Of a stretch of DNA of 64,000 nt, positions 74 to 57,647 are shown piece by piece (position 1 is the stretch's first letter; every line of letters begins with the position of its first letter). Source of the stretch: Cliona cf. orientalis (lineage: Eukaryota > Porifera > Demospongiae > Clionaida > Clionaidae); assembly GCA_963930775.1 (NCBI GenBank), contig OZ005703.1, positions 6,572,001 through 6,636,000 of the forward strand, in the 5' to 3' direction. The translations under genes were made by a program, and so were the position numbers. The notes beneath the pieces are model-generated. The model had not been told where the DNA came from. It was given only the letters and a program-made list of their open reading frames with translations, and made no database searches.

Positions 74-3000
74 ATGATGAGCCGGAAAGCGCCCATGCTG
101 ATAGTACTACACTTACTGACTTTTTCGGCCGTTTGCTTGGGACAAGATCAATCCCTTGGTCCATGTAAGTCAGTCTCTCTCTCCCTCTCCCTCTTCTGTC
201 TTTCTCTCACTAATCTTCATCATAAACCTATATTAAAACACAGATGATATCTCAGGCAGTGGTACTATTCCAGACTTGTCCCCATTCACATGCGCCAATG
301 ACAACGTGACCACCTTACGACTAGAAATCTTTGATATCCTACCCAATAGACTAGCTCAACTGTTGGGATGTGCTGCGACTGATTCCTCTGATGAGCTGCT
401 CTACACAATATCACTCTCAGATATACAGCCCATCAAGATATCAGAATTATCCAATATCAGTATTGTTGACGATTACTTGGACCAGGGAACTTATCAAGCT
501 ACAATTGAGGTGTGTGTTCTTGGAGAAAGTGGGAATGACAGTCCAAGGCTCTCCTGTGATGATGTGCATACTGAGACTCAGATTTATAGTAATGTGACGA
601 TAATTGTTGGTACCGATGAAGATTTGGCCCCATTCACATGCACCAACGATAACGTGAATATCTTACGGCTTGAAATCTTTGATATTCTATCCACTACACT
701 AGCTCAACTGTTGGGATGTGCTGCAACTGATTCGTCTGATGAGCTACTCTACACAATATCACTCTCAGATAGACAGCCCATCAAGATATCAGAACCCAAT
801 AGCACTGTTGATGATTACTTCGACCAGGGAAGTTATCGAGCTACGATTATAGTTGAGGTGTGTGTTCTTGGGAACAACAGTCTCTCCTGTGATGACATGA
901 TGCAGACTGAGAATCAGACTTACAGCGACGTGACGATAGTTGTTGGTCCAAATACCAAACGTCTTTTTCCCTATGGACCAGGAGATGAGATAGTCTCTGA
1001 TATTGATGATGAGACATTTAGCATCGTATCTTCTGATGGGATACCCTTTTTGACAGACACATACAACATACTCCATGTAAGTTGACATACGTGGCTACCT
1101 AGCCACTGCACAATAATTAATTTTAGGTTGAATACACTATTATCCCAGTAGATCTGTTCCAAAATTAATATCAATGTTCTTACTTAAACTTCGTAAAATT
1201 TAACGAAAGCCTGGCCTGGGGTGTCAGCTAACTATGTCTATAGTGCTTATAATAATATATGATCATGTGTAATATCCTATGTGCTTTTCTTAATATTCAG
1301 ATCAGCAGCAATGGATTGGTATCATTTACACGGCCATATCGAGCATGGTGGGCGACTCCCATTCCTTTTGGGAGGTACCCTACTCCAATCATTGCCCCGT
1401 ATTGGTCCGACATAGACTTCCGCAACAATCTCCCTGACTCTGGGGTATACTATAGAATCTACGAGGTGGAAGCGAACGATCGAAGGACTGTGAACGTTCT
1501 GCGAGAGTTCAATACTAGGTTGGCAAATTATGCTGGCATCAATTTTGATGCAGAATGGTTGATGGTAGTCACTTGGAAAGATGCTACTCCTTACTATGGT
1601 CGGAGAAATACTGATGAGGTATGTTATAAAATTACATGTAGCTATAGTCTATACAAGCCAGCTGAGTTAGGGAGTATATTATAGTCTCAGCATTGATTAA
1701 AAATACACAAGATCAATTTTTCGTGTACTTTGACCCCTTTTCTCAGGTTGTGACCTTCCAGCTGGTGCTAGCAACAGATTTCTTGACAACCTATGCCTTC
1801 TTTCTCTATGATGATTCAACATGGAGCCTCAGCCGCAGATTCTGGCCTCGAGTGGTAATCGGTCATGATAATAAAGATTTCACCAACTACGACAACATCC
1901 AACTTACCAGTCCAGAGTATCTTCGCATACAAAACATCCAGGGTAATACTGGTCGTACTGGTGAATGGTACTTCAACTATACCGCCCAAGGGGAAGTTGA
2001 TTCCGCAAAAATCTGCCTTCAGTGGGCCCAGAGACAAGACAGAAATGTTTCTGCCGCATTTGAAGGGGTACCGTCTTGCCCTTGCACTCATCAACAAGCC
2101 TGGAGAGATTGGAGCTTCTGGTTTGGGTATTACTGGGGCTTTTCGGCTCGCCCAAACTGTGCCACTTTACTGTTCTCACGGAGACAGAGTACCATTGAGT
2201 GTTGCTATGACGATGATGGGTCATTGATTGTGGGGGCCAATGATGGAGGGAGTTTTTTGCTCTACAATCCATTGTTTCGACATCGGCAGAATATTCTAGA
2301 AGATCGCCAACCTTATCGCTATTGCTGTGAGGAGTCGAAGCTATGTCAGCTGTACTATCTGCATAGACCTTCCGATGATTGCAGCATGTATGTCAACATA
2401 AGACCTGGTGAGTATAATAATTATAGTTTCCATTGGATAATTATAACATATTGACTCATATTATAGTCTTGTCTCCAAGCCCATTCCAAGTTTTCAGATT
2501 TGTATGCTGAATGCTGAAATAGAGAAAATCTGAGAATGGGCCTTGGGATGAGCAAGGCTACATTGCCTATGTATAGGCAATCATCCATAGACCGTATTAA
2601 GCCCAGTATAATAATTGTAGGGACTAATGGATCTCTTTCATTCTGATTGTAGCATGGATGTTTGGAGATCCTCATTTTGCATCCGTCGACAACAACAACT
2701 TCACCTTTAACGGTATCGGAGAATACCTTCTCCTTCAGTCCTCCACCAATGACCTGACAATTCAGTCAAGACTGGTGCAGTTTGAAAACACCAATGCCTC
2801 AGTGATGAGTGCGATAGCCATCGAACAAGGTGGCATTCAACTCCAAGTCGAAGTAAAAGATGGCGCTCTCCAGCTCTCCGTTCAAGGTATCTCACAGTCC
2901 TTGCCCACTGGAGACAACGTATACATCGTCACAGCAAATGGCATTAACTCCATACTCAACAACGGCCTGGATATTCAGAGTGTCACTTCGCAAGATTTGC

Positions 3001-6000
3001 TGATCCAACAAGATTCAAGTGATCAGCTTTCGCTACAAGTTGATGATTCAGGCACTTTGGTTGTCATCACGCCAGGGGGAGCCACGGTGATGGTCTCACT
3101 CCAGATGTCATTTCTGCAGACCACCATGACTTTATCTGACAATTACATGGAAGAGACAAGAGGACTGATGGGTGTGTATAATGGAGATCCATCTGATGAT
3201 TTCACCCTTCCAGACAGTACAGTTCTCAGTGGCAGTCTAACTGAAGCTGAAATCTACAGTTTTGGATTGCAGTGTAAGTATAGGTGTGATCTAGCAAATC
3301 CCCATGTAATATTAGCGTATACACTACCTTCCGAGGATGTAGATATTTGGTATACCTGAGGATGATTAGAAATTATCCTAGCCCCTGGGTTACTTTTCAG
3401 CCATTATTACTAAATTTTATCATTACACTAACTGTGCTGTACCTGTAGGGCATGTGGATGAAACTGATTCTATCTTCCACTACTCCGATAATACAAGTTA
3501 CAGTACGTATAACTTGGACTACCTGACTTTCATGCCGACATTCACGAGTGAACTGATGAGTAGCCTACCATCGGATGCGGATTCTGTTTGCCAGGGAAAC
3601 CAAGCTTGTCTGTACGACTATGCAATCTCTGGAAATGCTGAGCTCGGAAACTCCACACAAATGGCAGCAATGAGTGGCCAAGACCTTCAAGCTATTCTGA
3701 GTAAGATTCTGTGTTTTCAATGCCATAGCTACCACTCTGAAATAAAAATTGTGCGATCTCAAACATTAGGTTAATTTTGCAACCTAGCATGCTTTTTTAG
3801 CCAAAATTATGAGTACTAATATTGTGTTGATGCTTGTGCACAGGTGGCTTTCTTATATTATTCATATACTGTGTGTGGTCAGTTGCTTCATGAATAATGA
3901 TAAAGTGGGATGGTGCCATGGAAGCCAGCAGCAAAATAAATATCCAATTGAATTTCATTACTATGTATGCAGCTGGCTTAGCAAATGTAATTTGCAATCA
4001 TCTCTCTCTCTCTCTCTTTCTCTTGTTCTCTTACACACCCACCAACTAACAGGCAATAGTCCTCCAAACATCACTGGTTCATTCTTGCTGTACGTCAACA
4101 GTGGAGAGTCTGTCAATGAGATGTACAATGCTGATGATCCTGACGAAGACAGTATCAGTACCTTTATCTTAAAGGTATTACATTAAATCAGCTAATTAGC
4201 TGATTAACTTGCAGATATGTGATAATAACTGTAGCTGCTAAGTAAGATTTTAGCCAAAAATGTAAGCGATACATCAGTAGACTATCAGAACAGTGCAAAC
4301 TTATCACTAGTAGATCCCCTTAATACCATACCAGAGTAACCCTTATCTACTCCTGTACCATACTTATCACACTGTTAAGAGCAGGTAGCAATAATAATTT
4401 AAACCTAACAGGATGGTCCAGAACAAGATGGGATCACCTTTACAATGTCTATGACCTTCATGGATGGCATACTACGGTGGAATAGCCCAGGACTCAGTGT
4501 ACCCTCTTCGCCAATAACGCTATTCGCTAACGATTCCAAAGGAGCATCGTCAACAAGAAGAGTCTCCATTGTGCTCTGCGGCTGTATAAATGGTGGCATT
4601 TGTGTTCAAGCAGATCGTAAAGTGGAGAACATTCGATTCGATGAAAACGGCCACTTTAAGCAGCTCTGCAGCTGCCCTCAGTTTTATGGAGGAGACTCGT
4701 GTGAGATTGAAATGAGGGGCTGTGACTACAGCGTGTGCCCCGATTCTAACGTTTGTGAGGCTGATGCCGCAGAGCCAAGTGGCTATGTGTGCACTGGATG
4801 TCAGGATGGATTTATGATTGTGGACTCAAAGTGTATAGGTAAGAAGAGTTTAGTGGTAGTGTATAGCGATTTTTTTTGATGATCATAGCCATCTTCTGAA
4901 TTCATTAGATATTAACGAGTGTGTGGAGATGACGAATAACTGCACCCAAAATCAGCTTTGTGTGAATACTGAGGGAGGTTTCATTTGTGAGTGCAAACCA
5001 GGCTTCAGATCACTAGATGGCGGAGCAACATGCCAAGGTACTGCAATATTATAATATTATTATCATAGTGTGCTATGATTTATGAATGTAGAAACACTGT
5101 GTGCTGGCTTATACTTAGGCTTAAGCAACAAGATGACTAGGTAGCCCAGTCTGTTTTTAGTTTTTGTCTCATTTCATTGAGACTTTCGTCTCATTTTTTG
5201 AGCCCTCATTTTTTTGAGCCCTTGTGCCCTTTATTTAAAGTTTTGTGATTTCTCTGTTTTGCTATCCTGATGAGTCACATCACTTGTGATGAAAAGCTTA
5301 GATCAAATTTACAGTTGAAGTCACCCGTCATCTTGTTGCTTAAGCCTAAGTATAAGCCAGCACACAGTGTTTCTACATTCATAGTGTGCTATGATTACTA
5401 AATTTTGTGTTGATAAGAAAGTTGAAAAACCTCACCGTTTCCCTACAGATATTAATGAATGTGCAGAGGGAGTTTCAAGCTGTTCTCAAGTGTGCACCAA
5501 CACAGTGGGAAGCTATACTTGCAGCTGCCATCCTGGATACACTCTTGATGCAGATGGTTCCACCTGTACCCGAAGCGCTGGTATGCTATGCTATGCTAGT
5601 GATGTATGGACACAATTATTTCATTTTTGATAATTTTTTTATACATAGTTGGTGGCTTTGTTTGTGATGAGGGGGCATATGTCATGATGGCAGGAGAACA
5701 CCAGTGTGTCTGCCCTGTGGGACAACAGTGCATGGGAGTCTGTAATTCAAGTGACGTGACAGCTCTTCAGAATGGAATACAAACTTGTCAAGGTTTGTGT
5801 ACCAATGATTAAGGCTTATGTATGTGGTAAATAATATGTCACGGTTTGCAATTGTCTACCAAAGGCTTATGTATGTGGCATATAGCTATCGTACTATCTA
5901 GTAAGAGTAACAATTATTATACTCATTAATCATTTTGTTGTTATCTACAGATTGCACTGGGCAACAGTATGGATATGAGTGTGGAGAAACTTGCAGCTGT

Positions 6001-9000
6001 ATGAATGGAGGCAGCTGCAATAATACCATTGGATGCATATGCCCTAGTGGGTGGACTGGATCTACTTGTACAATTGGTAAGTCATGAGTTACAGCATAAT
6101 ATTATGCTATGTCCAGCTGTTTCCAAAGATGAACTCTCTTATTATACACATGCGCACAATGCTGAGTTACTTTTCAATCCTCATCGCTAGACACTTTGAC
6201 TTACTTTCCATAGTCACTTGCATGATAATATGGAGCTAACATGTATTACCGGTATAATGTAATCTCTTGCAGAGGTGAATGCTCATGCTCCCGTTTTCAG
6301 TGTGGTCACACCAGTCATGCTAAACTGGACAGCTTTGGCAGGACTCATGGTGGCCCGTGTCAATGCCAGTGATGCAGATACTGGTCCCAATGCAGGAAGC
6401 GTAACTTACTCTCTCGTTAGACCAGAGGTTTCACCTCCAACTGGCATTTCTGACGGCTTAACCATCTTCAATATCTCCCCAACTACTGGCATTATCACTC
6501 TAACTAGCAATCTCATCGACCACATTGATGATTTCTCTGAAATTCTCCTCACAATTAAGGCACAAGATCAGGGTCCCATTCCACTCTCAGCTACTACAGT
6601 ATTAAGCATAGTTCCAATTCCCGTTCCATATCTGGAATTTGATACCAGAATTCAAGTACCAGAGGACACCCCAGAAAACACTGACCTCACCAGTGTTACA
6701 TGTGCAGAACGTGGCCGCCCTAGCAACTCACTTAGCTTGAACTTACAAGGAAATTTCTCAAGATTTTTTGCAGTTAGCTTAGCAACTTCTCAACTGAGTT
6801 TAGTCCGAAAGCTTGATTTTGAATCTCTTACTGATCGAAGTGATCCATTCTACCGACTCGACTTAGTCTGTCAAAATCAGTATGGATTATCTGTTGAGAG
6901 GAAAATCGAGATTGAGGTTCTGAATATAGATGATAATCCATTCGTCTTCAGTCGCACTTTCTATTCAGCTTCAGTGCTAGAAAATGCATCTATTGGAATG
7001 GCTGTCATACAAATTACTGCCTCAGATGCTGACTTTCCTAGTGGCATGATAACCTACGCTTTTGTTGAGAATGACAGTCATTTCACTATTGGTACAGCGA
7101 GCGGTACAATCTCGATCATGGCTCTGCTTGATCGTGAAGAGCAGGATTTCTACGCGCTCATGGTAAGAGCAGAACTTGCTGGATCTCAGATTGATGTACC
7201 GGTGAACATCTCCGTATTGGACGTCAATGACGAGACACCAGTGTTCATAGATCAGCCCTACATCGTCAATAATCTCACCACAATGAACGAGGTCGGTGAT
7301 CATGTCGTCACAGTTATAGCACAAGACCCTGATGCAGGGGTAAATGGACAAATAACATACTCGCTTGCTAATAATAGCTACTTTGCTATCAATGAATCAA
7401 CTGGTGTTGTGTACGTGGATGCTCCTCTTCCGCCGATTGACCCGCTGATGCTACAGGTGACTGCAACAGACGGTGGAGATCCTGCACAGATGTCGAGCAC
7501 CACCATACATATTTTTGTGCAGCCGTCTCCGGAGGGAGTGAGATTTACGAGGACGAGGTTCAACTTTCGAGTTGAGGAGGATACGCCAAGGGGTGCTCTC
7601 ATAGGCCAAGTCGAGGCCTCTGTTGTCGACGGTCGAAACGTCACCCTCAATGATAGCCGCTCATACCCTGTGGTGTACTCCATTGTGAATAGTAGTGATA
7701 TATCGATATTCACGATTATCAGCACGACTGGTGAAATTTATCTCCTCTCAACGTTAGATTTTGATCAGTCAGCAAGACAGTATTTGTTGACCATCCAAGC
7801 ATTTCACCAAGTTACTAATGAGCTAAATTTTACAGCAGAAGCCACTGTCCTTATTGAAGTCTCAGACATAAACGATAACCCACCTCGGTTTTTCCCAGCA
7901 GCTTATGCAATTGCTGTTGAAGAATTTACTCCAGCCAATTCTTCTATTGTCAATGTATCAGCAACAGATATCGATTCAGATAGCAATATCACCTACTCCG
8001 TAGCAAGTGGTGATAGTGGACCATTCCAAATCCATCCATACACTGGAGTCATTTCAACCACGCAAGAGCTTCTCATTGCCAGAGACTATCGATTCTTTGT
8101 GACAGCTTTCGACGGGAAGCTTTCCTCAATGGCGGTCGTCTTCATTTCAGTGACAAGGTCAGTCTCAGTTGAACCAACTTTTACTAGAGAGCGGTACATA
8201 TTCAATCTTCCAGAGAGTGCCACTAGGGGATCGTATGTGGGTATGGTAGAAGCTGTGACTAGAGGTAGCCTTTCGTCTCTTGATTTCAATCACCTCCAAT
8301 TTAGAATTGTCATGCCTGTTGATGTCAATGTAACCTCGCAGCCTGGAGATGGACTCTTTCACATTGACGACATAAGCGGCAATATAAGTACACTAACAGA
8401 TTTCGAATTTGATGCTGAAAATCGGACAACTTACGTGTTCTTTGTTCAAATTTACAGCAACATCGATGATGCTGTGCATGATACTACTACAGTTGCAGTT
8501 GAGCTCCTAGATGCCAATGATAACTCCCCTGTTTTTTCACAATCCCTTTACACCCGTGTTATTGAAAGAACGGCAGCTCCTGGGTCAGTCATTCTCAATG
8601 TCTCTGCCACTGATCGAGACTCCACAACGAATAGTGAAATAAGATACTCTATCGAACCACTCTCGTTTGACTTTACCATCAATCGTACGAGTGGAGAAAT
8701 ATCCATAGCAAGCAGCTCCTTAGAAGTAGGGAATTATCGTCTGACAGTTATTGCAACAGACAAAGGCTCCCCTCCTCTAAATGGAACTACTACAGTCATC
8801 ATAGCTGTTATTCCTGCAGTACCCAGTAATCTAGTGTTCACACAGCCTGTCTATCGCTTTGGTGTGTCTGAAGATGCTGAAGCCAATGCTTTAGTAGGAA
8901 GAGTGCAAGCTCTAGATGCTGCAACAAACATGACTCTCAGTAGTGTAGAGTATTCCACGTCAAATCTGAGCATCTGTCTTCATGTGGGTCAGGATGATGG

Positions 9001-12000
9001 TGAGATACGAGTATCATGTGATTTAGACAGAGAAACAGAGCCAAGATATGAGCTACAGGTTTTCGCCAGAGATAGAAATGCAACTGGGTATGGTACAGTC
9101 ATAGTAGATGTTCTGGATGTCAATGATAATTCTCCGAAATTTTCTCTCGATGTGTACGCTGAAGTTATTGATGATCAATTTGGCAATGAAACAGCCATCC
9201 TTCAAGTGAATGCCATAGACTCTGATGCAGGGCGGAACAGTACCATTACTTATAGTTTTACACCAACAGTAGGAGCTGTGGAAGATGTATCGAGCCACTT
9301 TAGGATAAATTCCAGCAGTGGTGCAATCTACCTCCACCAATCTACAATCGCCATAGGTGACTACCGGCTCACTGTACAAGCTACTGATAGCGGAGTACCC
9401 CAGACAATGAGCTCAACAGCAATAGTCCTGATTTGCGTCATAAGAGCCCGACCTTCTGTCTTCTTTTTCAACACATCTGCCACTCTGTTTATTGATGAGA
9501 ACCAATCTCCACAGACAACAGTAGGTAGTGCAGTTCTACTGACAACAGGGGGAATAATCAATCCAATGGATTTTATGAATAATCTTCACTTTTCTATAAT
9601 CGGGGGAGACTCAGTCGAAACTACAAACAGCTCCTTTCCATTGTTTGGAATTGATTCAGATACGGGTAGAGTGTACACGATAGCACCACTAGACCGCGAA
9701 GAAGCCGACAGACATGTGATAGTAGTGCTTGCAAATTTTACGCTGTATGGCCTCACTGAGCAAGGCTCTTTGAATATTGAAGTCATAGATCAAAACGATG
9801 TCAGACCAATGTTCGGCTTGGCAGAGTATGTTGGAATAACGGAGGAGAATGCAGAAAATGATACAGTCGTCGTTAATGTTACCATTGTAGACGAGGATGT
9901 GGGGCCTAATGCGGAGATTGAGTTGTACCTAATTAACCCCATTGGCAACCCTTTCAGTATTCGTGTGCGACAGACTAACTACCCTTATACGCATGGAGAA
10001 ATCTTTGTGCAGAATTCAGATCTCCTCATACCAGGACTGTACAACTTTGGTGTCACTGCTTCTGACAGAGGAATAAATCCACTTACCAGCACTTCTCGTA
10101 TCTATATCACAGTGGAACACTCTCCACCAGAATTTCTCTCCTTTGAGTTCAATCCGTACATTTTTGAATTGACCGAGAATGCTATGGTGACCTCCACTGT
10201 TGGTAATGTATCGATTGAACAACCTATAACTCCAGCTCTTGATACCCTACTGTATAGCATTGTTGCAGGCAATGAAGGAGGGTTCTTTGGAATCAATGGA
10301 TCAAGTGGTGTCATCTCAAATCAACGGCCTATCAATAGAGAAACCAATTCGCAATTCAACCTCACCATTGAAGCACGTGTACTCTCAGAACCCTCACTTG
10401 CACCAACTGTGACTACTGTTGTCGTAAATATAGCTGATACAAATGATAATGTACCCGTATTTTCCACTGGCTCATATTCGGTCACATATCTCACATCAGA
10501 CCTTACAGCTAGATTCAGTCTGGTAGATGTGATGGTAACGGATGCAGATATTGGGTCCAACGCAGCTGTGGTGCTCAGTTTAGAGGATGCGTCATCGAGC
10601 GGTGACTCCAGAAATTTTAACATCACACCTGATGGGAGGATATTCAACACCACCAGCTTGAATGCTACACGCTATATCTTCAACGTTGTAGCAAGAGACA
10701 TGGGAGCACCTCCACTATCCTCAAGTGCCTCCGTATCGATCACAATCCAACTACCAGTTCCTGATAGCATTAGTTTTGTTCAACCTGGAGGCTATGTCTT
10801 CAACATCAGTGAGAATGTGCCCTCAGGTGCTATTGTAGGAGATGTTGTGCTAGCACCAGTTCCTGATCACGTTATTCAATTCATTGAATTTACAGACAAC
10901 ACTACTGATTTTCAACTTGTTCGAAATGCTGGTGAGGTCCGAGTGCAAATACAATCGCTGAATCTTTTTGATTACGAGGCAAGACAATCCTACACCTTCC
11001 GAATCGAGGCAAGAGTACTCAATAGCACAGTGCTACCGCCTGTCAATCTGCGAACATCTGTCATAGTTACAGTTATTGTCATTGACACAAATGACAATGA
11101 ACCAGTATTTGTCAACTTTCCCTCTAGACTAGCTTATCTGGAGAATAGAACACGTGAAGAATTGGTCCATGACTTCAATGCAACCGATGCCGATTCTGGT
11201 ACGAATAGTATAATTGAATATCAAATTGTGAATCAAGATATTCAAAGTAAATTTCGCATTGACAGTGCAACCGGGGAACTGTTTGTATCTGCAAGGGTTG
11301 ATAGAGAGGAACGAGAAACTTATCGAATCATCATCCAAGCCATGGATCGTGGAACGCCAAGGCAATCTGTACAGAGCACCACAACTATCACCTTGTTAGA
11401 CATCAATGACAACGTCCCAAGAATGACTAACGGTTTCTCAATGTCTGTCCGTGAAAGAGTTCAACCTCCTCTGCAGCTTACACAGTTCATGGGTGTTGAC
11501 CCCGATCTAGGTAGCAATGGAACATTTCAGTTCTCTGCAGTTGCTGGTGGTAGCATTCCAGATATCATTGCTTCCATTGTCACCATCCATACAAACGGCA
11601 GTGTGGAGTTAGCCAGAGAGCTTGACTACGAACAGGTACAAACTTACACAATCCACGTACGTATAGCCGATCAAGGAACACCACCATTGCAGTTCATCTA
11701 TATGAATATCACTCTTCAAGTGATCAATGAACCAGACAACACTCCACAGTTTATCATTCCAGGTGGTGCACCATTTTACAGCAATACTACCCTACCAAGG
11801 CTGAGGAATGGAGACATATTGGCCCTAGTTAGAGCAACAGACTTAGATCCTAATGACATCATAAGCTATGAAATAGCCTCGATTACAGTGGAAGGAAACA
11901 ACGGGATGCAGCCTGCTTTCAGAATCGATTCCAGTACTGGAAGCATATACCACAGTGGTGTCCGTGGTCTCATACCTGAAGCAAACTTTACCATAAATGT

Positions 12001-14864
12001 TGTGGCCTACGATAACAGTCGGTTTAACCTCTCAGTTGGAACTCAGGTGAAAATCACGGTCCTACCAGAAAGACTGCAGTTCACACAGGCCAATTACACA
12101 GTGCAGCTTTCTGAGGATGCGTCTATCAGTAGTGTGGTGTCTAGAGTACCATTGCAGCCTCTCTCTGCTTCCTCTTTAGTGCACTATCTCATCAATGTCG
12201 ATCAACCTGCTGGTCAGACTGGGGTGTTTAGGGTAGATGGACAAGGACAATCAGAAGCGATTATACATCTAGCACGGAGAATTGATAGGGAAAATATCGA
12301 GAATTACACCCTGTCAATTACTGCTCAGCGTGTTAATGAATCAGATGTGACTGCTATAGTGTTCATCAATGTTACTGATGTCAATGATAATCGACCTCAG
12401 TTCTCAGATCCACCCGATTCCGTGATATTCGTTTTAGAAAGCACAACATCACAGGTAAGGGTCTCAAAGGTGAACGCAACAGATGCAGACAGCGGAGAAA
12501 ATGGCCGTCTACAGTACAGATTCAGGACTTCAGGAAGAAGTTTTCCATTCATGATTGATCTAAATACTGGTGATATTGAGGTTTCTGGTGATCTTGATTA
12601 TGAGATGACATCAAGCTACACAGTCACAGTAGATGTGTCTGATTCTGGAGCCCGTCCACAGGTCCAATCACAGGTCTACATAATACAACTTATAAATGAG
12701 AATGATAATTTTCCTGTATTCAGTAGTGGTGCTTATTTTGGTGAAATTTATGCTGGCTCATCTCCCGGTGACTACGTTCTACATACACGGATTCAAGTCA
12801 CAGATCGAGATGACCCAAGTGCTGAACAACCTATAACTTTTGAAATTACCTTTGCTGAAGACTCCTCCAGGTCCGATTATGTCTTTGAGGTGGAGAGTGA
12901 AGCTCCGCATCGTATTCGAATTGTCAGTCTTCCTCAACAAGACACTGTCACAGAGTCTCAACTGCTTCAACTAAGAGTAACAGCAACCGATGTCGGGCTT
13001 AGTGCGGCGTCTGCGAGGCTGTTCATTTCTGTGTTCACATATTCCAATCTGATTTCCTTCCAGTTTAGTGGAATAACCTTTGCACAACTTTTGGACTGTT
13101 CTGGACTACTGAGTTCCATCTGTGGATTCCTCCGTGCTCTGGCTATAGAGACTCAGACACACACCAATACTCCAGTTACATTCTACAATTATTCTATACA
13201 GAGCTCACCTGCAAGTCCATTAGAGTAAGTGCCACAATAATATTTGTAGCATACATTTCATACAGACTCCTAGTAAAGCTCTTACCTTGTAATTTATACA
13301 TTGACCGTAATGATAGTATTACTCTTTTTAGCTATATACTATTATAGCTCATTCAGCTGCTCATAATATTAATAACACACATAACAATATGCACACTTAT
13401 AGTGTTGATGTCGTGGTGTATGGGTGGTTTGGAGACTTGGAACCGCGAAACAACAACGGTGAACTTTCTGAAAATTCAGAAACCCCTCAGCCAGTTCAAT
13501 ACGTCCAATACGATGAAGAACTCTTTACAATGATTGCTGACGCAAACATCTTCGAACCCTTAACATTTGGGGTGGAGTTCAAGCCAAATGTTGAAGCAAC
13601 TCAGACGGAAGGGCCAAGCGTTGAGGGTGATGGTGGTGGTATTCCAACAGTGGTGATCCTTGGTGTGGCTGTAGGAGGAGGTTTAGCGGTAATGGTGATC
13701 TTCCTGATCATTGTGCTCGTTTGTGTGTTTGGCCGAAGGAGAGGAAACGATAAACCTAAAAAGAAAAAGAGAAGAAGGTAAGAATGTGGAGAGAGGGAGA
13801 TAAAGAGCAACTCAGAGAGAAAGAGAGAGAGAGAAGTGGGGGTGGGAGGGAGAGAGATATGATTCGTCTTCATAATTTCACAGAGGAGTCAGGAGGTCCA
13901 GTGATCCATATGACAGAGGACTTGATCGTCATTTGGACAAACCAAGGCCAAAACCTAAGAAGAAATCTAAAGGGCGAAGAGAGGCAGAGAGAATGGTGCT
14001 GTCACCCTCCATGACAACTGACCAAGCCTATGAAACAATGTTCGATGATGACGAACTCCTGGGCAACAAACAGACAATGCCTTGGTTTGATCCAAACTAC
14101 ATGGCTTCTAACGACAATGTAAGTAAAGTCACAATAATTTTAATCTTCGTTAGGAGTAGTTTGGTGATTTTTTAAGGTTGTGTGGGCATTTGCTGGCCAG
14201 CTATCTCATTTCTGACTTGCATTGTACTTCTGGTGTTGTTGTAATAGCTGTGATTATGAATTTCAGGCATCCTACGATGGAGATATTGACCAGCAATCCT
14301 CTCTGGATGGGAAGGGAGGAGGAGGAGGAGGGGGGCTGGGCCTACGAGCTACCGTGGACGGCAACGCTCGCAGACGACGACACTCATCAGATGAAGATGA
14401 ATCAGTGAAGGAGCTGAGTACGGCTCAGGAGTCTCACCTGCAAAGCTATCAGGAGTCCACACCAATGCAGCCAGGTCAGTGTCACCGTACAATGTCAGGT
14501 GTACAGTACATGAGTGTGTGTAGAGTGCTGCGATTTACGTATTACTTTAGAGGGTGGGAGTACATGATTTCCTCAAACGTATCTGATACCACCCCCTCCC
14601 CCAGCACAAGAATTGGAGTTGATGTACATAATAATAGGCGTGAACTTTTTATGCATAGGAATCTTTTTAAGTGGAAAATTTGTTCTTTTGATGTATATAG
14701 CTATCAGTTGTATGTGCATGAACTCTACAGGTCAAAGAATGGGAGAGTTTGATATGTTTGTGAAGAACCGTGACTCAGACAAGCCATTCAGACCATCCTT
14801 ACCAACGAACTGGGAACGACAACAGCAGTACTTAGCAGCAGCCAATGCAACTTCAAGATTTTAG
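74..14864 (+). CDS. Giant NIDO-AMOP-VWD-EGF-cadherin transmembrane adhesion protein (17 exons, about 3919 aa)
   Basis: Exons: 74-164, 244-1076, 1301-1618, 1747-2407, 2653-3273, 3449-3700, 4053-4174, 4412-4838, 4909-5037, 5449-5580, 5649-5792, 5951-6076, 6273-13224, 13403-13777, 13884-14118, 14267-14474, 14731-14864; all phases agree. A hydrophobic signal peptide (ending near VCLG) is followed by two near-identical ~110-residue repeats of no family I recognise. Then come NIDO (about 265-500), AMOP (about 502-632, with CPC and ECC motifs), VWD (from about 636, GDPHF), EGF and EGF-CA modules (DINEC) to about 1285, about 21 cadherin repeats (1286-3600), one membrane helix (about 3681-3707) and a ~210-residue basic, Gly-rich and Ser-rich tail. 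NIDO-AMOP-VWD order is known from MUC4-like proteins; joining it to a cadherin rod is unusual. Likely cell-cell or cell-matrix adhesion (inference). I see no clear catenin-binding motif. Start chosen because the ATG pair at 74/77 opens the signal peptide. Confidence 0.85.
281..945 (+). repeat. Tandem duplicated ~110-codon module in exon 2 of the giant cadherin gene
   Basis: Two in-frame copies lie at about 281-610 and 629-945. Both begin with PFTC, carry the block [20 protein letters not shown], then a VDDY-DQG-Y segment and an EVCVLG...SCDD segment, and end in VTI-VG. The DNA is also very similar, so the duplication is recent or homogenised. Four conserved cysteines and alternating hydrophobic residues suggest a secreted beta-sandwich (inference). 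I do not recognise the domain. Confidence 0.8.
5081..5383. mobile_element. Short inverted-repeat element (MITE-like) in a cadherin-gene intron
   Basis: Positions 5081-5137 are the exact reverse complement of 5327-5383 (57 bp arms), around ~190 bp of T-rich DNA. The direct repeat GTGTGCTATGATT lies at 5068-5080 and 5384-5396 and may be a target duplication, although 13 bp is long for a DNA transposon. It sits in the intron between two EGF exons. No transposase is encoded. Confidence 0.8.
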
Positions 14865-15049
14865 ATTATCATAATTAACTACCACAATTTTTAATGTGGC
14901 CCATTATCACTTATAAGAGATGCATAATTATTATGTTTATCACATACCCATTGACATAATATTATTGTTATTATTATAAATCTTGTGCTTAGTTTATAAG
15001 CAGTATGATAAAATATCTTCCATTCATAACATTATGCATTATGCATAAT
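14865..15049. other. AT-rich spacer between convergent genes
   Basis: This is the 3' flank of the giant cadherin gene running into the 3' flank of the first SelJ-type gene. It is AT-rich with TAATAT/ATAATA runs and a small ATTATGCAT palindrome near 15033. No gene is seen. Confidence 0.6.
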
Positions 15050-15096
15050 ATCAGCTCATTGCTACTTGTTTTACAACTTTAAGCAATGAGCTTCAT
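15050..15096 (-). promoter_or_regulatory. SECIS element of SelJ-type copy A
   Basis: Read on the minus strand: ATGA quartet (15096-15093), an 11-nt strand AGCTCATTGCT (15092-15082), an 18-nt loop containing TAAA, then the exact complement AGCAATGAGCT (15063-15053) and GAT (15052-15050). TTGT and ACAA in the loop can form a short extra helix, as in form-II SECIS elements. The flanks GCAT and ATGC can pair below the quartet. It begins about 50 nt after the TAA stop. It fits the eukaryotic SECIS consensus (ATGA, unpaired AAs, GA). Confidence 0.85.
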
Positions 15097-15144
15097 AACA
15101 TGCACAGTGAAATGAATATCAGATTGTAATGTGTGTGATAGAGT

Positions 15145-16741
15145 TTACAACTGAGCTAGCTCAATAGCCAACTCCAGAGCGTGCTTGGCACTGTCTGTTT
15201 TCTGGATCCATTCCAGTGGAATCGAACTGAGTCCATACTTTGCCCCGAGACAGGCTCCGACAAAAGACACCCTTGAACAATTGCACCCTCCCCCAAGCAT
15301 AGTGGCTCTCACCACAGACACGTAGTCAGTGTCATCAAGAAGACACCTCACTGCAGCCTGCAGAGAGCCAGGCAAATCTGAAAGAAAGAGCAATGATTGC
15401 ATCATCAATTGTGATAATATTAAGTTAGCAAAAATAATTCAGCATTGAAAGCTGAGAGAGACTAGCTATAATATGGTCTCATTGTGTGTATAAGTTTATA
15501 TACCTGTGATCATTTTTGCTATACTCCACCTACCTCATTGTTTTCCAAACTTCTTAGCTGTCTCAGTAACTCCAAGGCCTCTGGTCTCGAACACATCCTT
15601 CAGATGGCCCGACATGGCTCTATCCAGTGGCAAGGGGAAGGAACGATCTGGCTTCTTCAAATCCTCAATCACCTTCTCAAGTGAATGCACGTCTGCACTT
15701 GCTCCATCTAAGACGTACTGCTCCACAAGTCGGCAGGCCGCCATCACAGATGTGAGCATGAGATCTGACTTCTGAAGCTGAGCTGCTGCATCATAGGCTG
15801 TCTCAAGCATGTTTGGCTTGCCAGCTAGTAAAGCCACGAGTGGCACAAGCCTTGGGATGTTGTCAGGATCGACATTTAGATCTTCTTCGAGCATATCTTC
15901 AACTTCTTTTCCCTCTGCATAGAGATTTGAGAATCTGCGAAGGAGAAAGTTGCGCCATTTTCCCTGAATGGGAAACATGGATCGGTCAGTCATGTTCTTG
16001 GAATAGCTGGCTGTTGCTTTGCTATCGTAGGGAGAACCTGGTCCAAATGCTTTGAAAATCTTTTTGGCATTATCCTTGGCATCAAAACCTAAGCAAAGAA
16101 GCATATAATATTATATAGGCAACATTATTAATGATCGTATTTCTAGCCCAAATTCAATAGTACATGCTTAGATGATCACAATATGCACGAATATGCCTCT
16201 AATATCTACCTTTACAAGCTACCAGAGACTCCAACATGACAATCAACAGGTCACCATATGGACTCTGCTGGCCAGTTGTTTGAGTGTAGAAAGGATTGAC
16301 AGACTTCGGCAAGAACTCAGGATTAATACCCTCCACTGCTTTGGCCAAATCCTCCTCCTTGTACACCCAGTGAATAGGCTGAGCTGAATCAAACATACAG
16401 AAATTCAGATTTATATATTTCTTAGCACATGTGATTGCACACACAGCTAATAGCTAATATTATTATCATTATCACACATTCTCAAGTCATTGAAACACAC
16501 TGCTACCCACTAGTTTCACCCCCCACTGGGCTCATTTCAATATAGGCCTAATTATCACTCACTCATACACAACACTATTATAGATTTATAATATAGTAAT
16601 TTAGAGGGATTTGAATGTGGTTCTCTACTGAAATTGAGTACCTGCTGCATCAGCTACCAGTGATCCTAGAATAGCTGCCACCTTCCTCTGCTGAGCGTCA
16701 GGCAGACTGCCCGCCTTGGACAGCAGCTCCGACAACTCCAT
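15145..16741 (-). CDS. selj-like: Selenoprotein J / J1-crystallin-like protein, copy A (4 exons, 353 aa with one Sec)
   Basis: Exons in transcription order: 16741-16642, 16383-16210, 16088-15534, 15377-15145; phases agree. The protein runs from MELSELLSKAG through QPIHWVYK, TTGQQSPYGDLL and GKPNMLE to the last-exon block GGGCNCSRVSFVGACLGAKYG, which matches the J1-crystallin/SelJ branch of the ADP-ribosylglycohydrolase fold. A TGA at 15537-15535 (codon 276) lies in frame between KKFGKQ and DLPGSLQ, one base before the last intron. The tandem paralogue has TGA at the same site, and a SECIS-shaped hairpin lies about 50 nt past the TAA stop. I therefore read TGA as selenocysteine. SelJ is a known selenoprotein family related to jellyfish J1-crystallins (established). 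Its enzyme activity is not clear. Confidence 0.82.
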
Positions 16742-17107
16742 CGCCGATTTTTATGATGAAACAATGCTGTAGAGAGCGTTAGATCTGTATATTAAGGAAG
16801 ATGTGGGTGAAGCCACCTAGCAAGGTAGCTACAACTCAGCAAAAAAGTATAAAATGGCTGCCAGACCTAGGACATGCAGGACGAGGGCTACATGTAGTAA
16901 ACAGGGTGCGGTCAAAACTACCTAGCCCCACCCTTATCACGTGTGCAGTAGCTGAGCTGAGCCCCACCCTCATCACATGTGCAGCAATAGCACCTGCAAC
17001 AGCACCTGCAACATGAAAACTACTAGATTTTTAGCAATGATACAAAAATTAAGACTAGTAATAGTATATACAAAAATATTGTTCATTTTCATTATGCACC
17101 ATAGAAT
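16742..17107. other. Spacer between the two SelJ-type genes
   Basis: The presumed promoter of copy A lies at its low end. A near-tandem repeat near 16930-16985 (CCCCACCCT.ATCAC.TGTGCAG.A) and an AT-rich stretch follow. No coding region is supported. Confidence 0.5.
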
Positions 17108-17152
17108 ATCAGCTCATTGCTTGTCTTCACAACTTTAAGCAATGAACTTCAT
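17108..17152 (-). promoter_or_regulatory. SECIS element of SelJ-type copy B
   Basis: Minus strand: ATGA (17152-17149), AGTTCATTGCT, a 16-nt loop with TAAA, AGCAATGAGCT, GAT (17110-17108). The helix keeps 11 pairs; relative to copy A one C changes to T, giving a G-U pair, while the loop drifted. This shows the structure is preserved. It begins about 49 nt past the TAA stop at 17203-17201, the same distance as in copy A. Confidence 0.85.
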
Positions 17153-17200
17153 AACATGCACAGTGAAATGAATATCAGATTCTGATGTGTATGGCGGAGT

Positions 17201-19939
17201 TTACAACTGAGCTAGCTCGATAGCCAGCTCCAGAGCGTGTTTGGCACTGTCTGTTTTCTGGATCCATTCCAGTGGAATGGAACTGAGACCGTACTTTGCC
17301 CCGAGACAAGCTCCTATGAAAGACACCCTGGAGCAGTTTCATCCACCCCCAACCATAGAGGCTCTCACCACAGACACATAGTCAGTGTCATCAAGAAGAC
17401 ACCTCACTGCGGCCTGCAGAGAGCCAGGCAAATCTGGAAGATTAAAAGAAAGAGCACTGTACCAAGTTTTGGCTATAAGTTTATATTAATTTTACGCAAA
17501 TTAGGCATTATAATAATTTTGTACTGTACCTCAAATTTTTCCAAACTTCTTTGCTGCCTCTGCCATATCAAGACCTCTGGTCTCCAGAACATCCTTCAGG
17601 TGGCCCGCCATGGCTCTATCCAGTGGCAAGGGGAAGGAACGATCTGACTTCTTCAAATCCTCAATCACTTTCTCGAGTGAATGCACGTCTGCACTTGCTC
17701 CATCTAAGATATATCGCTCCATGAGTCGGCAGGCCGCCATTACGGTGGTAAGTATGAGATCTGATTTCTGAAGCTGAGCTGCTGCATCGTAAGCCATCTC
17801 GAGCATGTTTGGCTTGCCGGCTAGCAAAGCCACGAGTGGCACCAGCCTTGGGATGTTGTCAGGATCCACGTTTAGATCTTCTTCGAGCATATCTTCGACC
17901 TTTTTCCCTTCAGCATGGAGGTTTGAGAACCTTAGGAGGAGAGGATTGCGCCATTTGCCCTGAATGGGGAACATGGACATGTCGCTCATGCCTGTTGGAT
18001 CGTAGCTGTTACATGCATCATTGTCGAAGGGGGAACCTGGTCCAAATGCTTCAAAGGTCCTCTTGATACTGTCCTTAGCGTCAAAACCTACTCAACAAAT
18101 AGACAGTGTATATAGCTACATAATTCAAATATTCATCAACAGAAATAACATTGATACCTTTGCTAGCGGCCAATGATTCCAGCATAACCATCAACAGGTC
18201 GCCATACGGGCTCTGCTGTCCAGTTGTTTGAGTGTAAAAAGAATTGATGGATTTTGGCAAGAACTCAGGATTAATGCCTTCCACTGCTTTGGCTAGGTCT
18301 TCATCCTTGTACACCCAGTGAATAGGCTGAGCTGAAAGTGGTACAAATTGTTTGATAGATATCTACATCGTAAGTTATATGCACGGAAATAGATTTCATG
18401 CATTTCTGTGAATATATCAATAAACACATAATATGCATAGTTACATATTACCGTATAGCGGGAAACTTTTGAGGGAGAAAACTTTCACGAATTTCGCGAT
18501 TTTTCAGCCATCCGCGAAAGTTTTCTCCACGAAATTCTAGGCATTCCACACCCATTATCCGATCAATTTTTGCATTCCGTGAAAGTTTTCTCCGTGAAAT
18601 GCTCCTTTCCTACCAATCCGCGAAAGTTTTCTCCCTCGAAAATTTCCCGCTATACGGTATTTAGTCTCATAGTCCTGGCCAGCCCCTTAACAGAGAGGAA
18701 GATTGTGCCCTATGGAATTGGTTCCCAGTTCATTGAGCCTCCATAGAGGGAAAGCTACACAAAAGAAGGTAATTTACGCCAAGCGTAATGGTGGACCAGG
18801 TCGTCAACACAGCTGTCTAGCTGTCTAGCTGCTACTGACAGGTGGCGTTCAAATTTACACCAACTACAGCCCTGCCCAGATGTCTCAGTAATAAGATAAA
18901 CACTTTCTTACAGTCAAAAGAGATAAGCCATCTACATGAAGTTTTCATTTGCATTTGTGTTAGTATGCTCCATTACTCACTACGTGCGCCTGGGCAAACT
19001 GTCACCCGTAACCTTAATGCAGGTCCTCTTAAAAGTCTTACAATAGGGAATATGCACCCCACCTGTCTGCAAGCCAATTAGTGGTTCGTATGGTGACATC
19101 ACTTTCATACCTATTCAAAAGCCCCACAGCTGTAGTTTTGACTTAATAGCTAATTACTAAAAAATGCCACCCAGAAATCATTATTAGTGTTCCTAGGTAA
19201 CAGCATTAATGACAGATAACAATTGATTTTGATGATCTACCTCGATCTGATGGATATTCAATTCCAGGAGAGAGAATGATGTAGCAGTATAGAGGATATA
19301 CTGCTAAATGATACCACATGAGTATATATATTGTGCCTAATATTATTAGTCAAATTTGTGGCTAGTACCTGAATGATCAGGAGGAATTTGTGTTAGCCCC
19401 ACATCCTCCCTCCACCCACACACACCCACACACGCCCATGTCTACTGGCAGATGGTCTTTTATTTTTTTGAAACCAAAAACTGCTAACAAAGTTATCACC
19501 AACTGCTAAATTTTTGATATCTTGGCGAAATATTATAGTATGTATAATATAATATCGTTCTCAGATCAAGGGCTTATCGAGCCGTCGATGCCCTTGTTCT
19601 ATTGATGATGTAGCATAATTCATGTTGATATCATTCATGATAATATTATTATGGCCACTAAACTCGTCTGATGGGTTTGCTCCAACACCTTAGTAATTTT
19701 AAAAATGCTAGCTTAGTGTAAAAGTGATGGAATTATCAACAGTCTAGCTGGCTAGAACCCTACTCAGTTTCATGGTACCCATGCATGCTTCCTATAGCGA
19801 CTCGGGGTTGGACTGCTCGAGGTAATTCTGTAAACTCACCTGCTGCATCAGCTACCAGTGATCCTAGAATAGCTGCCACCTTCCTCTGCTGAGCGTCAGG
19901 CAGACTGCCCGCCTTGGACAGCAGCTCCGATAACTCCAT
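17201..19939 (-). CDS. selj-like: Selenoprotein J / J1-crystallin-like protein, copy B (4 exons, 354 aa, two in-frame TGA)
   Basis: Exons in transcription order: 19939-19840, 18331-18158, 18087-17530, 17433-17201. Sizes are 100, 174, 558 and 233 nt, against 100, 174, 555 and 233 in copy A, so there is no frameshift. A TGA at 17533-17531 (codon 277) stands at the shared Sec site after KKFGKI. A second TGA at 17341-17339 (codon 309) stands where copy A has the Cys of GGGCNCSR. A SECIS hairpin lies at 17152-17108. A Cys-to-TGA pair between paralogues is the classic sign of Sec/Cys exchange, so this may be a two-Sec protein. If only one TGA is recoded, the second would truncate 46 codons. Intron 1 is 1.5 kb and holds a MITE. 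The first exon faces calreticulin across a ~500 bp shared promoter region. Confidence 0.75.
18449..18659. mobile_element. MITE with TACCGTAT ends in SelJ-type copy B intron 1
   Basis: The ends are TACCGTATAGCGGGAAA and its inverted copy TTTCCCGCTATACGGTA. The inside repeats CGCGAAAGTTTTCTCC several times in one or both orientations. The terminal TA could be a Tc1/mariner-type TA target duplication (inference). It is about 211 bp and noncoding. Confidence 0.75.
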
Positions 19940-55149: not shown

Positions 55150-57647
55150 TTGGGATACCTAGTGTTGTGTCCCATCTCCGGGCACTCATACAAGCTAGAC
55201 GATGCAACCAACACAGATATGACAAAGTTTAAGACTCTTGCTCTTTATTTCAGTGTCTCTGCGTCACTTGTGGTGATGGTTTTAGCTGTTAGAGCACTTT
55301 GGCAACCAGTGTCTAGTCATCCTGGGAGCGACAATGGGGCAACGGTCAAGCATTTATCTCAGTTAGATCATTCGTCTCATTTGTCTCAGCTCCATGATAC
55401 TGTAATGCGGCGGCGACAGAGTTTGACTAATAGGACCAACATAATCTTCATCTTGGCTGATGATATGGGATTATGGGCGGCTGGAGCGTATGGAAATCCC
55501 GAGATTCATACTCCTAATATTGATCGACTGGCTCGAGAGGGTCTCAAGTTCACCAACGCCTTCAGCAATACTCCAGTGTGCTCAGCAAGTCGAGCAAGCA
55601 TCTTAACAGGTAAGCAACTAATGTTATGACAAGTAGCACTAAATTGCATAGAAAACTGTGATAGCAAGGATAGTAAAATACCAACTGACAAGGTACACCC
55701 TATATAGCTAATCTATGAATAAAAATTATGAGTAGGGATATTATCTCATTTTAAACCTAAGTTGTGTCCATTTGTCCCTGCAACCTCATAGCTACCCGGC
55801 CAACTTTTCTATTTATTTTTTGTGCTAGCTGCACTATATGTGACCCGCTATGAGAAAAGGGACCACTTGGGATATTTTTTCATTTTCTAGTAATTGCTAA
55901 AATGTGTGGAAGATTATTATTTTTCACTTTTCTGTTTTTTGGTTTATTAGAAAATGTAGATTTTTGGCTTCATAGTGATATACTATGTTCATAGAGTTGC
56001 AACATGTAAACTATAGTTATGGGTATTATTATTTACTTGGGCGCATACAAATTAATGTAAATTTCAATTAAAAATGCGCATTTTCCGAAAAACGAATATA
56101 CCTACCCGAGTGTATAAAAATGGTCATAACTCTGCTTGTGATCAATATTTTTTCATGAAACTTGCACCATTGGATTTAGCACACATAGAGCTATCAATCC
56201 ATGCCAAAAACTCAATTTTTATAAAATATCCCGAGTGGTCCCTTTTCTCATAGCAGGTCACATATAGCTACCTTTTTGTTAGCTATTTGACACTATAGGT
56301 CGACTTCCAACCCAGAATGGAGTTCTTGACTATGTGCAGCTTGGATCTGGGTGTGGCGGTGAGGGAATTGAATACTTACACAAGGAGATCTCGTACACAG
56401 ACATCCTCACAAAGCATGGCTACTTCTGTGCACTGGTCGGCAAGCATCACCTTGGATACGATCGCAAGATACAGCATTCTTTCAAACATTGGTACGTATT
56501 TGGACGTGGGGTGGTACCTATAGCGTACAAAGATCCCATAATGGTCAGCAATTCAGAGTGTGTTGTAGTGAAGGGTTATACAACGGATGTCATTGGAGAT
56601 GGAGCAATTGACTTCTTGAACAGCTATGCCAAGGACCAGGGGTCAGGAGCAGATCCTTTCTATCTCTCTGTACATTTCACAGCACCTCACACTCCACACA
56701 TAGGGGAGGACGGTAGAGCAGATTCTATGCATCCGGAGAAGTACGTCAATTTGTACGAGAAAGCATCTTTCGTGTCCTGCCCTCAAGAAGAGTTGCCTAA
56801 ATCTGATATTAATTATCTATCACGAAGATGTCACAATAACCGTGAGTGTTTGAAAGGCTACTATGCTTCTGTGACTGGAATGGACATGAATATTGGAAAA
56901 ATCATGGACACTGTTCGTTGGCTTAATCTAGACCAAAATACACTCATAGTGTTTGCTAGTGATCATGGATACAACGCTGGTCACCACGGGCTGTGGGGTA
57001 AGGGAAATGCCGGCTATCCTCTAAACGTCTTTGAAACGTCTCTCAGGATCCCCATGATTTGGCGTCACACTGGAAAAATTGAGCCGGGTGTGGATGAATC
57101 GGTTGTCCAAGTGCTAGATATCGCTCCCACACTACTAGACTATGCTGGAAACTTAAAATTTCCTACCTCAGCCAATATTCCTGGAGAGAGCTTTACGGAT
57201 CTACTTCTCAGACCAGAAAAGCGTAATTCCAATTCCCTGAAAGCAAGAACAATATTTGGGGAATATGGGGCAACTAGATTCATCCGAATGAATGCCACAA
57301 CTAAGTACATTTCTCGACTAACGGGAGCTCAGAAACAGTTCAATCTTAATGAGGATCAAAGCCATGAGCTATTTGACCTTGCACATGATCAGAGTGAGTC
57401 CTCAAATCTCATAAACTCTAAGGCTCTCACACAGGAGTACTTGGCTGAATTACAGTCTTATGAGAAGTCGCTACAGGATTGGTTCGGACAGTATGAGGAT
57501 AAGGACATTAGCAGCTGGAGAGAGTTTGTTACGGGGAATGGGCAGCGCAGACCTATTACCTATGCCTATAAACGTACACCACAGTTGAAGGAAAAGCTAG
57601 CACCTTTCAAATTCAACGTTGCTAAATACAAGAAGAACCATGAGTGA
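55150..57647 (+). CDS. Sulfatase of the formylglycine type (2 exons, 602 aa)
   Basis: Exons 55150-55609 and 56299-57647. A signal anchor (TLALYFSVSASLVVMVLAV) precedes the type I sulfatase domain. ILADDMG gives the metal-binding Asp pair, and CSASRASILTGR, split by the intron, is the motif whose Cys (144) is oxidised to formylglycine. HHLGYD, HFTAPHTPH and DHGYNAGHHGLWGKGN complete the active site. Such enzymes hydrolyse sulfate esters, often on glycosaminoglycans; the substrate is unknown. An in-frame ATG at 55219 fits the anchor better and may be the true start. It lies in the same direction just after eight sulfotransferase genes, so the locus holds both adding and removing activities for sulfate. 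Confidence 0.9.
55835..56266. mobile_element. 432-bp inverted-repeat element in the sulfatase intron
   Basis: The arm TATATGTGACCCGCTATGAG continues with AAAAGGGACCAC; its inverted copy ends at 56266 (about 44 bp arms, few mismatches). It fills most of the intron. There is no coding content. Confidence 0.8.

Follow-up and report, generated by a model that had tools for sequence, protein, structure and literature searches.

Two tandem genes in the genome of the sponge Cliona cf. orientalis, with a probability that we put at about 0.9, encode SelJ-type selenoproteins of the ADP-ribosylglycohydrolase fold in which a UGA at the border of exons 3 and 4 is read as selenocysteine (Sec). Both genes lie on the minus strand of the 64,000-nt stretch of DNA analysed here (positions 6,572,001 to 6,636,000 of contig OZ005703.1, assembly GCA_963930775.1; hereafter the window). 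The gene structure, the UGA at a Cys column, the SECIS elements, the Sec machinery genes and the constraint on the codons past the UGA can all be seen directly. From these we infer Sec insertion at codon 276 of copy 1 and codon 277 of copy 2, as well as the protein function discussed below.

Gene structure and SECIS elements of the tandem pair

Copy 1 (16741-15145) is a four-exon gene whose introns are all GT-AG and whose exons join in frame (Table 1), giving a product of 353 residues when the TGA at codon 276, its single internal stop, is counted as one residue. Residues 22-331 match Pfam ADP_ribosyl_GH (PF03747) with an E value of 1.7e-28, placing an ADP-ribosylglycohydrolase domain over the whole protein. 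An initial annotation had pointed out that this TGA closes the reading frame while the conserved C-terminus resumes in phase in the next exon, and that it lies one base from the last exon junction; indeed, the exons join in frame through to the TAA and the G at 15534 is the sole base between the TGA and the last intron. A stop codon so close to the last junction escapes the 50-55 nt decay rule, so termination at codon 276 would not trigger junction-dependent decay. The selenoprotein gene proposed in that annotation is supported, but a second, tandem copy with an extra TGA had been overlooked. Copy 2 (19939-17201) lies upstream of copy 1 and its protein is 88% identical to that of copy 1; in its 354 codons there is no frameshift and no stop besides two TGA codons, which are 32 codons apart.

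Table 1. Exons, in-frame TGA codons and SECIS-type elements of the two gene copies (window coordinates; a slash marks the exon end)
Feature	Position	Strand	Remarks
Copy 1 exon 1	16642..16741	-	ATG start; donor CAGCAG/gtactc
Copy 1 exon 2	16210..16383	-	
Copy 1 exon 3	15534..16088	-	3' end is TGA G/gtaggt
Copy 1 in-frame TGA, codon 276, predicted Sec	15535..15537	-	Cys in 61/61 bacterial relatives and the C8 paralogue
Copy 1 exon 4	15145..15377	-	TAA stop 15147-15145; GGCNCSR with Cys308 (TGC), where copy 2 has TGA
Copy 1 SECIS element	15040..15106	-	Rfam SECIS_1 40.5 bits, above gathering (35)
Copy 2 exon 1	19840..19939	-	
Copy 2 exon 2	18158..18331	-	
Copy 2 exon 3	17530..18087	-	3' end is TGA G/gtacag
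Copy 2 first TGA, codon 277	17531..17533	-	Same site as copy 1 TGA
Copy 2 exon 4	17201..17433	-	TAA stop
Copy 2 second TGA, codon 309, GG[TGA]NCSR	17339..17341	-	TGC (Cys) in copy 1; Asp in 61/61 bacterial relatives and the C8 paralogue
Copy 2 SECIS-like element	17095..17160	-	SECIS_1 32.7 bits, below gathering (35); fold z -2.1

The 3' untranslated regions (UTRs) of both copies carry SECIS-type hairpins. The one behind copy 1 had been read from the letters (ATGA, an 11-bp helix, TAAA and GAT some 50 nt past the stop) and is recovered by the Rfam covariance model SECIS_1 above its gathering threshold, with E = 1e-4 over the whole 64 kb; it is the sole Rfam match at gathering in the window. Its AUGA starts 48 nt past the stop; the 11-bp helix comes next, then UAAA in the loop and finally UGAU. 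Its predicted fold (z = -5.4) is equalled by only one of 200 shuffles. The stretch originally delimited, from position 15050, covers the gene but stops 10 bases short of the end of the Rfam match. The copy 2 hairpin scores below gathering and eight of 200 shuffles fold equally well, but the layout is kept. A scan of both strands of the 64 kb for that layout, home-made and designed once both elements were known, returned two sites, one behind each gene copy, against a mean of 0.2 sites (both strands) in ten mononucleotide shuffles. A genome-wide RF00031 search (217 Mb, 149 contigs) gave no match and missed even the window's own 40.5-bit element; the control genomes likewise gave none, so this absence carries no weight.

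Comparison of the two copies yielded a dN/dS of 0.135 overall (dS 0.52, dN 0.07) and of 0.066 in exon 4, where 16 differences are silent and 4 are replacements, the TGC/TGA codon being included as one of the 4. From the stop to the end of the SECIS the 3' UTRs are 85% identical (88 of 103 aligned positions). Introns 1 and 2, the upstream DNA and the DNA past the SECIS are alike only at the level of shuffled sequence, and intron 3 is slightly above it (0.57 vs 0.46). These values bear on the plainest alternative, namely that translation really ends at the exon-end TGA, yielding a 275-residue protein, with exon 4 and the hairpin being remnants or belonging to another isoform. TGA is a stop in the standard code and, as noted, this one would escape decay; but the codons further down show strong constraint between the copies, SECIS-type hairpins stand in both 3' UTRs and the homologous residue is Cys in every bacterial relative (next section), and we consider a true stop very improbable. 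In the preferred reading, the 3' hairpin would recruit the Sec machinery during translation, the UGA would be decoded as Sec at a loop position that holds Cys in all relatives examined, and translation would then continue through the conserved C-terminus to the TAA.

Exon 1 of the two copies (16642-16741 and 19840-19939) shows one silent difference in 100 bases between flanks that are alike only at shuffle level, a pattern suggestive of either gene conversion on the scale of an exon or strong constraint. A MITE-like element (18449-18659) with 45-nt inverted ends that are 91% complementary sits in intron 1 of copy 2. Elsewhere in the window, a single open frame at 6263-13225 (2321 residues) holds 16 cadherin-domain stretches and is preceded by NIDO and VWD pieces at 1666-3356. 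A run of long open frames occupies 30790-54591; the three tested (30790, 48184 and 49881) all match Sulfotransfer_3, and by eye the other frames of the run start alike. A sulfatase lies at 56283-57644.

The exon-end column in relatives and the fold

At the column of the exon-end TGA, Cys is found in all 61 bacterial relatives and in a paralogue from the same sponge genome (C8:1406654-1409231, L011; here the C8 paralogue). This supports the selenoprotein reading of the initial annotation. Sixty of the bacterial relatives were obtained by an alignment-based scan of bacterial genomes via N-terminal patterns and one is plasmid-borne (L012; its near twin, L013, was left out), so that for 60 of the 61 the exon-end column was not itself selected for. 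Single-protein scans of genome-contig and viral-contig collections yielded nothing useful. The C8 paralogue has 337 residues, is 32% identical and contains no in-frame TGA; its motifs FGLACGMPGS and AGDNCSR place Cys at the exon-end column and Asp at the column of the second TGA. In its gene model, TGC G/gt stands at the same place and in the same phase as TGA G/gt in the tandem copies. It is possibly a J1-crystallin-like gene in the Cys form.

Since the TGA sits at an exon edge, splicing might bypass it through an alternative donor or acceptor. The homologous TGC of the C8 paralogue, however, is exonic in our gene model and followed by G/gt in the same phase, which makes the codon part of the ancestral exon; moreover, inspection by eye found no good in-frame donor upstream, and a SECIS would be without a role if the TGA were spliced out. 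We regard such a bypass as extremely improbable. The Cys column of the bacteria and the exonic TGC of the C8 paralogue together identify the exon-end codon as the ancestral Cys/Sec site and as exonic, and reading it as Sec is the interpretation we retain.

The column of the second TGA is Asp in all 62 relatives examined (61 bacterial plus the C8 paralogue). In a pairwise alignment to the MJ1187 structure (1t5j) it coincides with the leading Asp of the metal motif GGDTD, which we take to be D314 of human ARH3; in the mt-SAF23 alignment it comes directly after GG, and the 2cwc alignment is shifted by one position there. For one of the bacterial relatives, a confidently predicted model (mean pLDDT 94.8; 21 of the 60 relatives used) matches the folds of ARH3, DraG and MJ1187, with ARH3 D314 mutants among the fold matches. 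Both columns fall in loops of this model: the Cys column (C235) follows helix 224-231, and the Asp column (D267) immediately precedes helix 268-283. Among the bacterial relatives the first Asp of GGD(T)D is kept in 61 of 61 and the second position is mostly Cys (54 of 61). The GGD(T)D motif of active metal-dependent ADP-ribosylhydrolases is absent from both sponge copies, copy 1 reading GGCNC and copy 2 GG[TGA]NC. Because the metal-binding Asp residues are replaced by Cys or UGA, the protein most likely has a thiol/selenol redox or a structural role and would not be a magnesium-dependent ADP-ribosylhydrolase.

The second TGA of copy 2

The second UGA of copy 2 occupies a Cys/Sec exchange column within an otherwise intact frame. 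We rejected GG[TGA]NCSR as the canonical Sec site, since the bacteria have Asp there (61/61) and Cys at the exon-end TGA (61/61). We also rejected copy 2 as an old pseudogene, in view of its intact frame, the constraint between the copies and differences that are not one-sided.

We see about an even chance that copy 2 is a functional SelJ with two selenocysteines, its second UGA also being read as Sec. In such a history, the ancestral Asp at the metal-ligand position of an ADP-ribosylhydrolase would first have changed to Cys, and a tandem copy already bearing a SECIS would then have changed this Cys codon from TGC to TGA. With the second Sec then lying 32 codons past the first, what was a metal site would have become a candidate site for a diselenide or selenenyl-sulphide bond, and the sister copy 1 would retain Sec and Cys.

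Somewhat less credible to us, though by no means far-fetched, is that copy 2 has recently become a pseudogene, or that the second TGA either terminates translation or stems from an assembly error. It is a single extra TGA known from one genome assembly, the SECIS of copy 2 has the lower score, and selection measured on a pair of copies cannot date a very recent change, so that the second TGA may be very young. Several observations speak against such decay or error. Apart from the two TGA codons, the frame is open throughout. In the codons past the second TGA there are 12 silent differences and 1 replacement, where the counts between and after the TGAs exclude the two TGA codon positions and skip one gapped codon. 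The amino acid differences between the copies are also distributed to both sides: at the 42 differing columns the C8 paralogue agrees with copy 1 in 9 and with copy 2 in 5, and the corresponding counts for the bacteria are 10 and 14. Finally, a nonsense mutation striking at random would seldom hit a Cys codon, as Cys to TGA accounts for just 6 of the 136 single-step nonsense changes open to copy 1, yet the second TGA sits on exactly such a codon.

Selenocysteine machinery and comparison with known systems

The genome that carries the tandem pair also contains genes for Sec synthesis, namely a tRNA-Sec, SepSecS and a UGA-containing selenophosphate synthetase (SPS). Four tRNA-Sec matches exceed the cut-off, the best at 76.8 bits with the anticodon tca (checked with ARAGORN) and the other three at 47-49 bits. 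The SPS-like gene has an in-frame TGA in LKG[TGA]GCKVPQEE; it was recognised by three exons that match the selD model with scores short of the family cut-off (best E 1e-5), and the candidate SECIS element scores a weak 26.3 bits (E 0.083).

In-frame TGA codons were also found in AhpC-like genes, with UxxC in eight and UxxU in one. The AhpC-TSA search gave 13 matches, 12 of them taken as loci; two of these, L024 and L025, carry Cys in the active site, with a TGA elsewhere in L025, and one (L029) is unassigned. Six genes with U-P-P/Q-C (L026, L027, L030, L031, L034 and L035) stand within about 12.5 kb (C6, about 10518770-10531269), and two more (L028 and L033) are on C3. Judged by likeness among these close paralogues, the eight look like an expanded AphC-like selenoprotein family. 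The UxxU gene (L032, C17:1291385-1291699) has two TGA codons in the motif HFI-U-R-P-U-NNH and is perhaps SelL-like. Rfam SECIS models found nothing in 11 AhpC-like loci, either at gathering or at E 0.5, and a home-made SECIS scan with strict settings gave no matches in ten AhpC-like loci and the SPS locus. With looser settings and no shuffled control, the 700 nt past the stop showed AUGA...UGA hairpins in all five AhpC-like copies examined. A silicatein-type motif, CGASYAF, which we take to be the form that the papain active site has in silicatein, is present in 2 of 30 loci examined, out of 116 matches. Both this motif and the AhpC-like genes with in-frame TGA support the sponge origin presumed in the initial annotation. 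According to the relevant part of a 2012 survey, AphC-like selenoproteins among eukaryotes were reported from sponges only (PMC3473315); a later algal survey records AhpC selenoproteins in algae as well (PMC7539508).

The SelJ/J1-crystallin label of the tandem pair is a putative one, given by description and by fold family, the aligned relatives being bacterial plus the C8 paralogue. Alternatively, the pair might represent a different branch of the ADP-ribosylglycohydrolases in which Sec was acquired independently of fish SelJ, a reading for which a comparison set of bacterial relatives and the C8 paralogue leaves room. We think a separate branch unlikely. SelJ was reportedly described by Castellano in 2005 from fishes and the sea urchin, with Cys forms in cnidarians, and the Sec and Cys forms of the present fold family fit that description. 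In addition, a transcript of another sponge, Cliona varians, is annotated as 'Selenoprotein Jb; J1a crystallin', selenoproteins being otherwise unmentioned in the portion of that paper concerned (PMC4144087). We therefore keep to SelJ-type selenoproteins.

A Sec-containing SelJ from a sponge was absent from the open-access reports among the matches listed. If our reading is true, such a SelJ is placed in sponges, against a survey table that, in the part concerned, has SelJ in amphioxus and none for the sponge Amphimedon (PMC3473315). The initial annotation held SelJ to be reported from few animal groups; its range is wider than that, SELENOJ being recorded from algae in the pertinent section of the algal survey (PMC7539508). 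Given this occurrence, a Sec-containing SelJ in a sponge would suggest that SelJ was present early in animals. The same survey, where it treats the matter, considers Sec usually more difficult to gain than to lose (PMC7539508). In this respect the two neighbouring genes amount to a natural experiment, with one ancestry, a SECIS for each copy and TGC vs TGA at one active-site column, so that selenocysteine gain becomes directly testable.

The ADP-ribosylhydrolases ARH3 and DraG share the Pfam family and, through the model of the bacterial relative, the fold; they differ in that their GGDTD metal motif has become GGCNC or GG[TGA]NC in the sponge copies. The cnidarian J1-crystallins are Cys homologues within the SelJ subfamily and are, to our knowledge, without UGA or SECIS; by description, the C8 paralogue, also a Cys form, is likened to them. 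With SelJ/SELENOJ the pair shares the ADP-ribosylglycohydrolase fold, a Sec residue with Cys homologues and a SECIS in the 3' UTR, but the sponge genes are in tandem and copy 2 carries a second UGA. Two Sec residues are also found in SelL and the UxxU-type SelW, where they are two residues apart, in contrast to the 32 codons and the other fold of copy 2; in SelL, as far as the source goes in the relevant section, both are served by a single SECIS (PMC3316567). A system close to copy 2 is the two-Sec SELENOJ of Alexandrium tamarense, known from ESTs, whose second Sec is described in the section on that gene as lineage-specific and taken as a Cys-to-Sec gain (PMC7539508). Both are of SelJ type with a second Sec (a possible one in copy 2); the one, however, comes from the ESTs of an alga and the other from the genome of a sponge.
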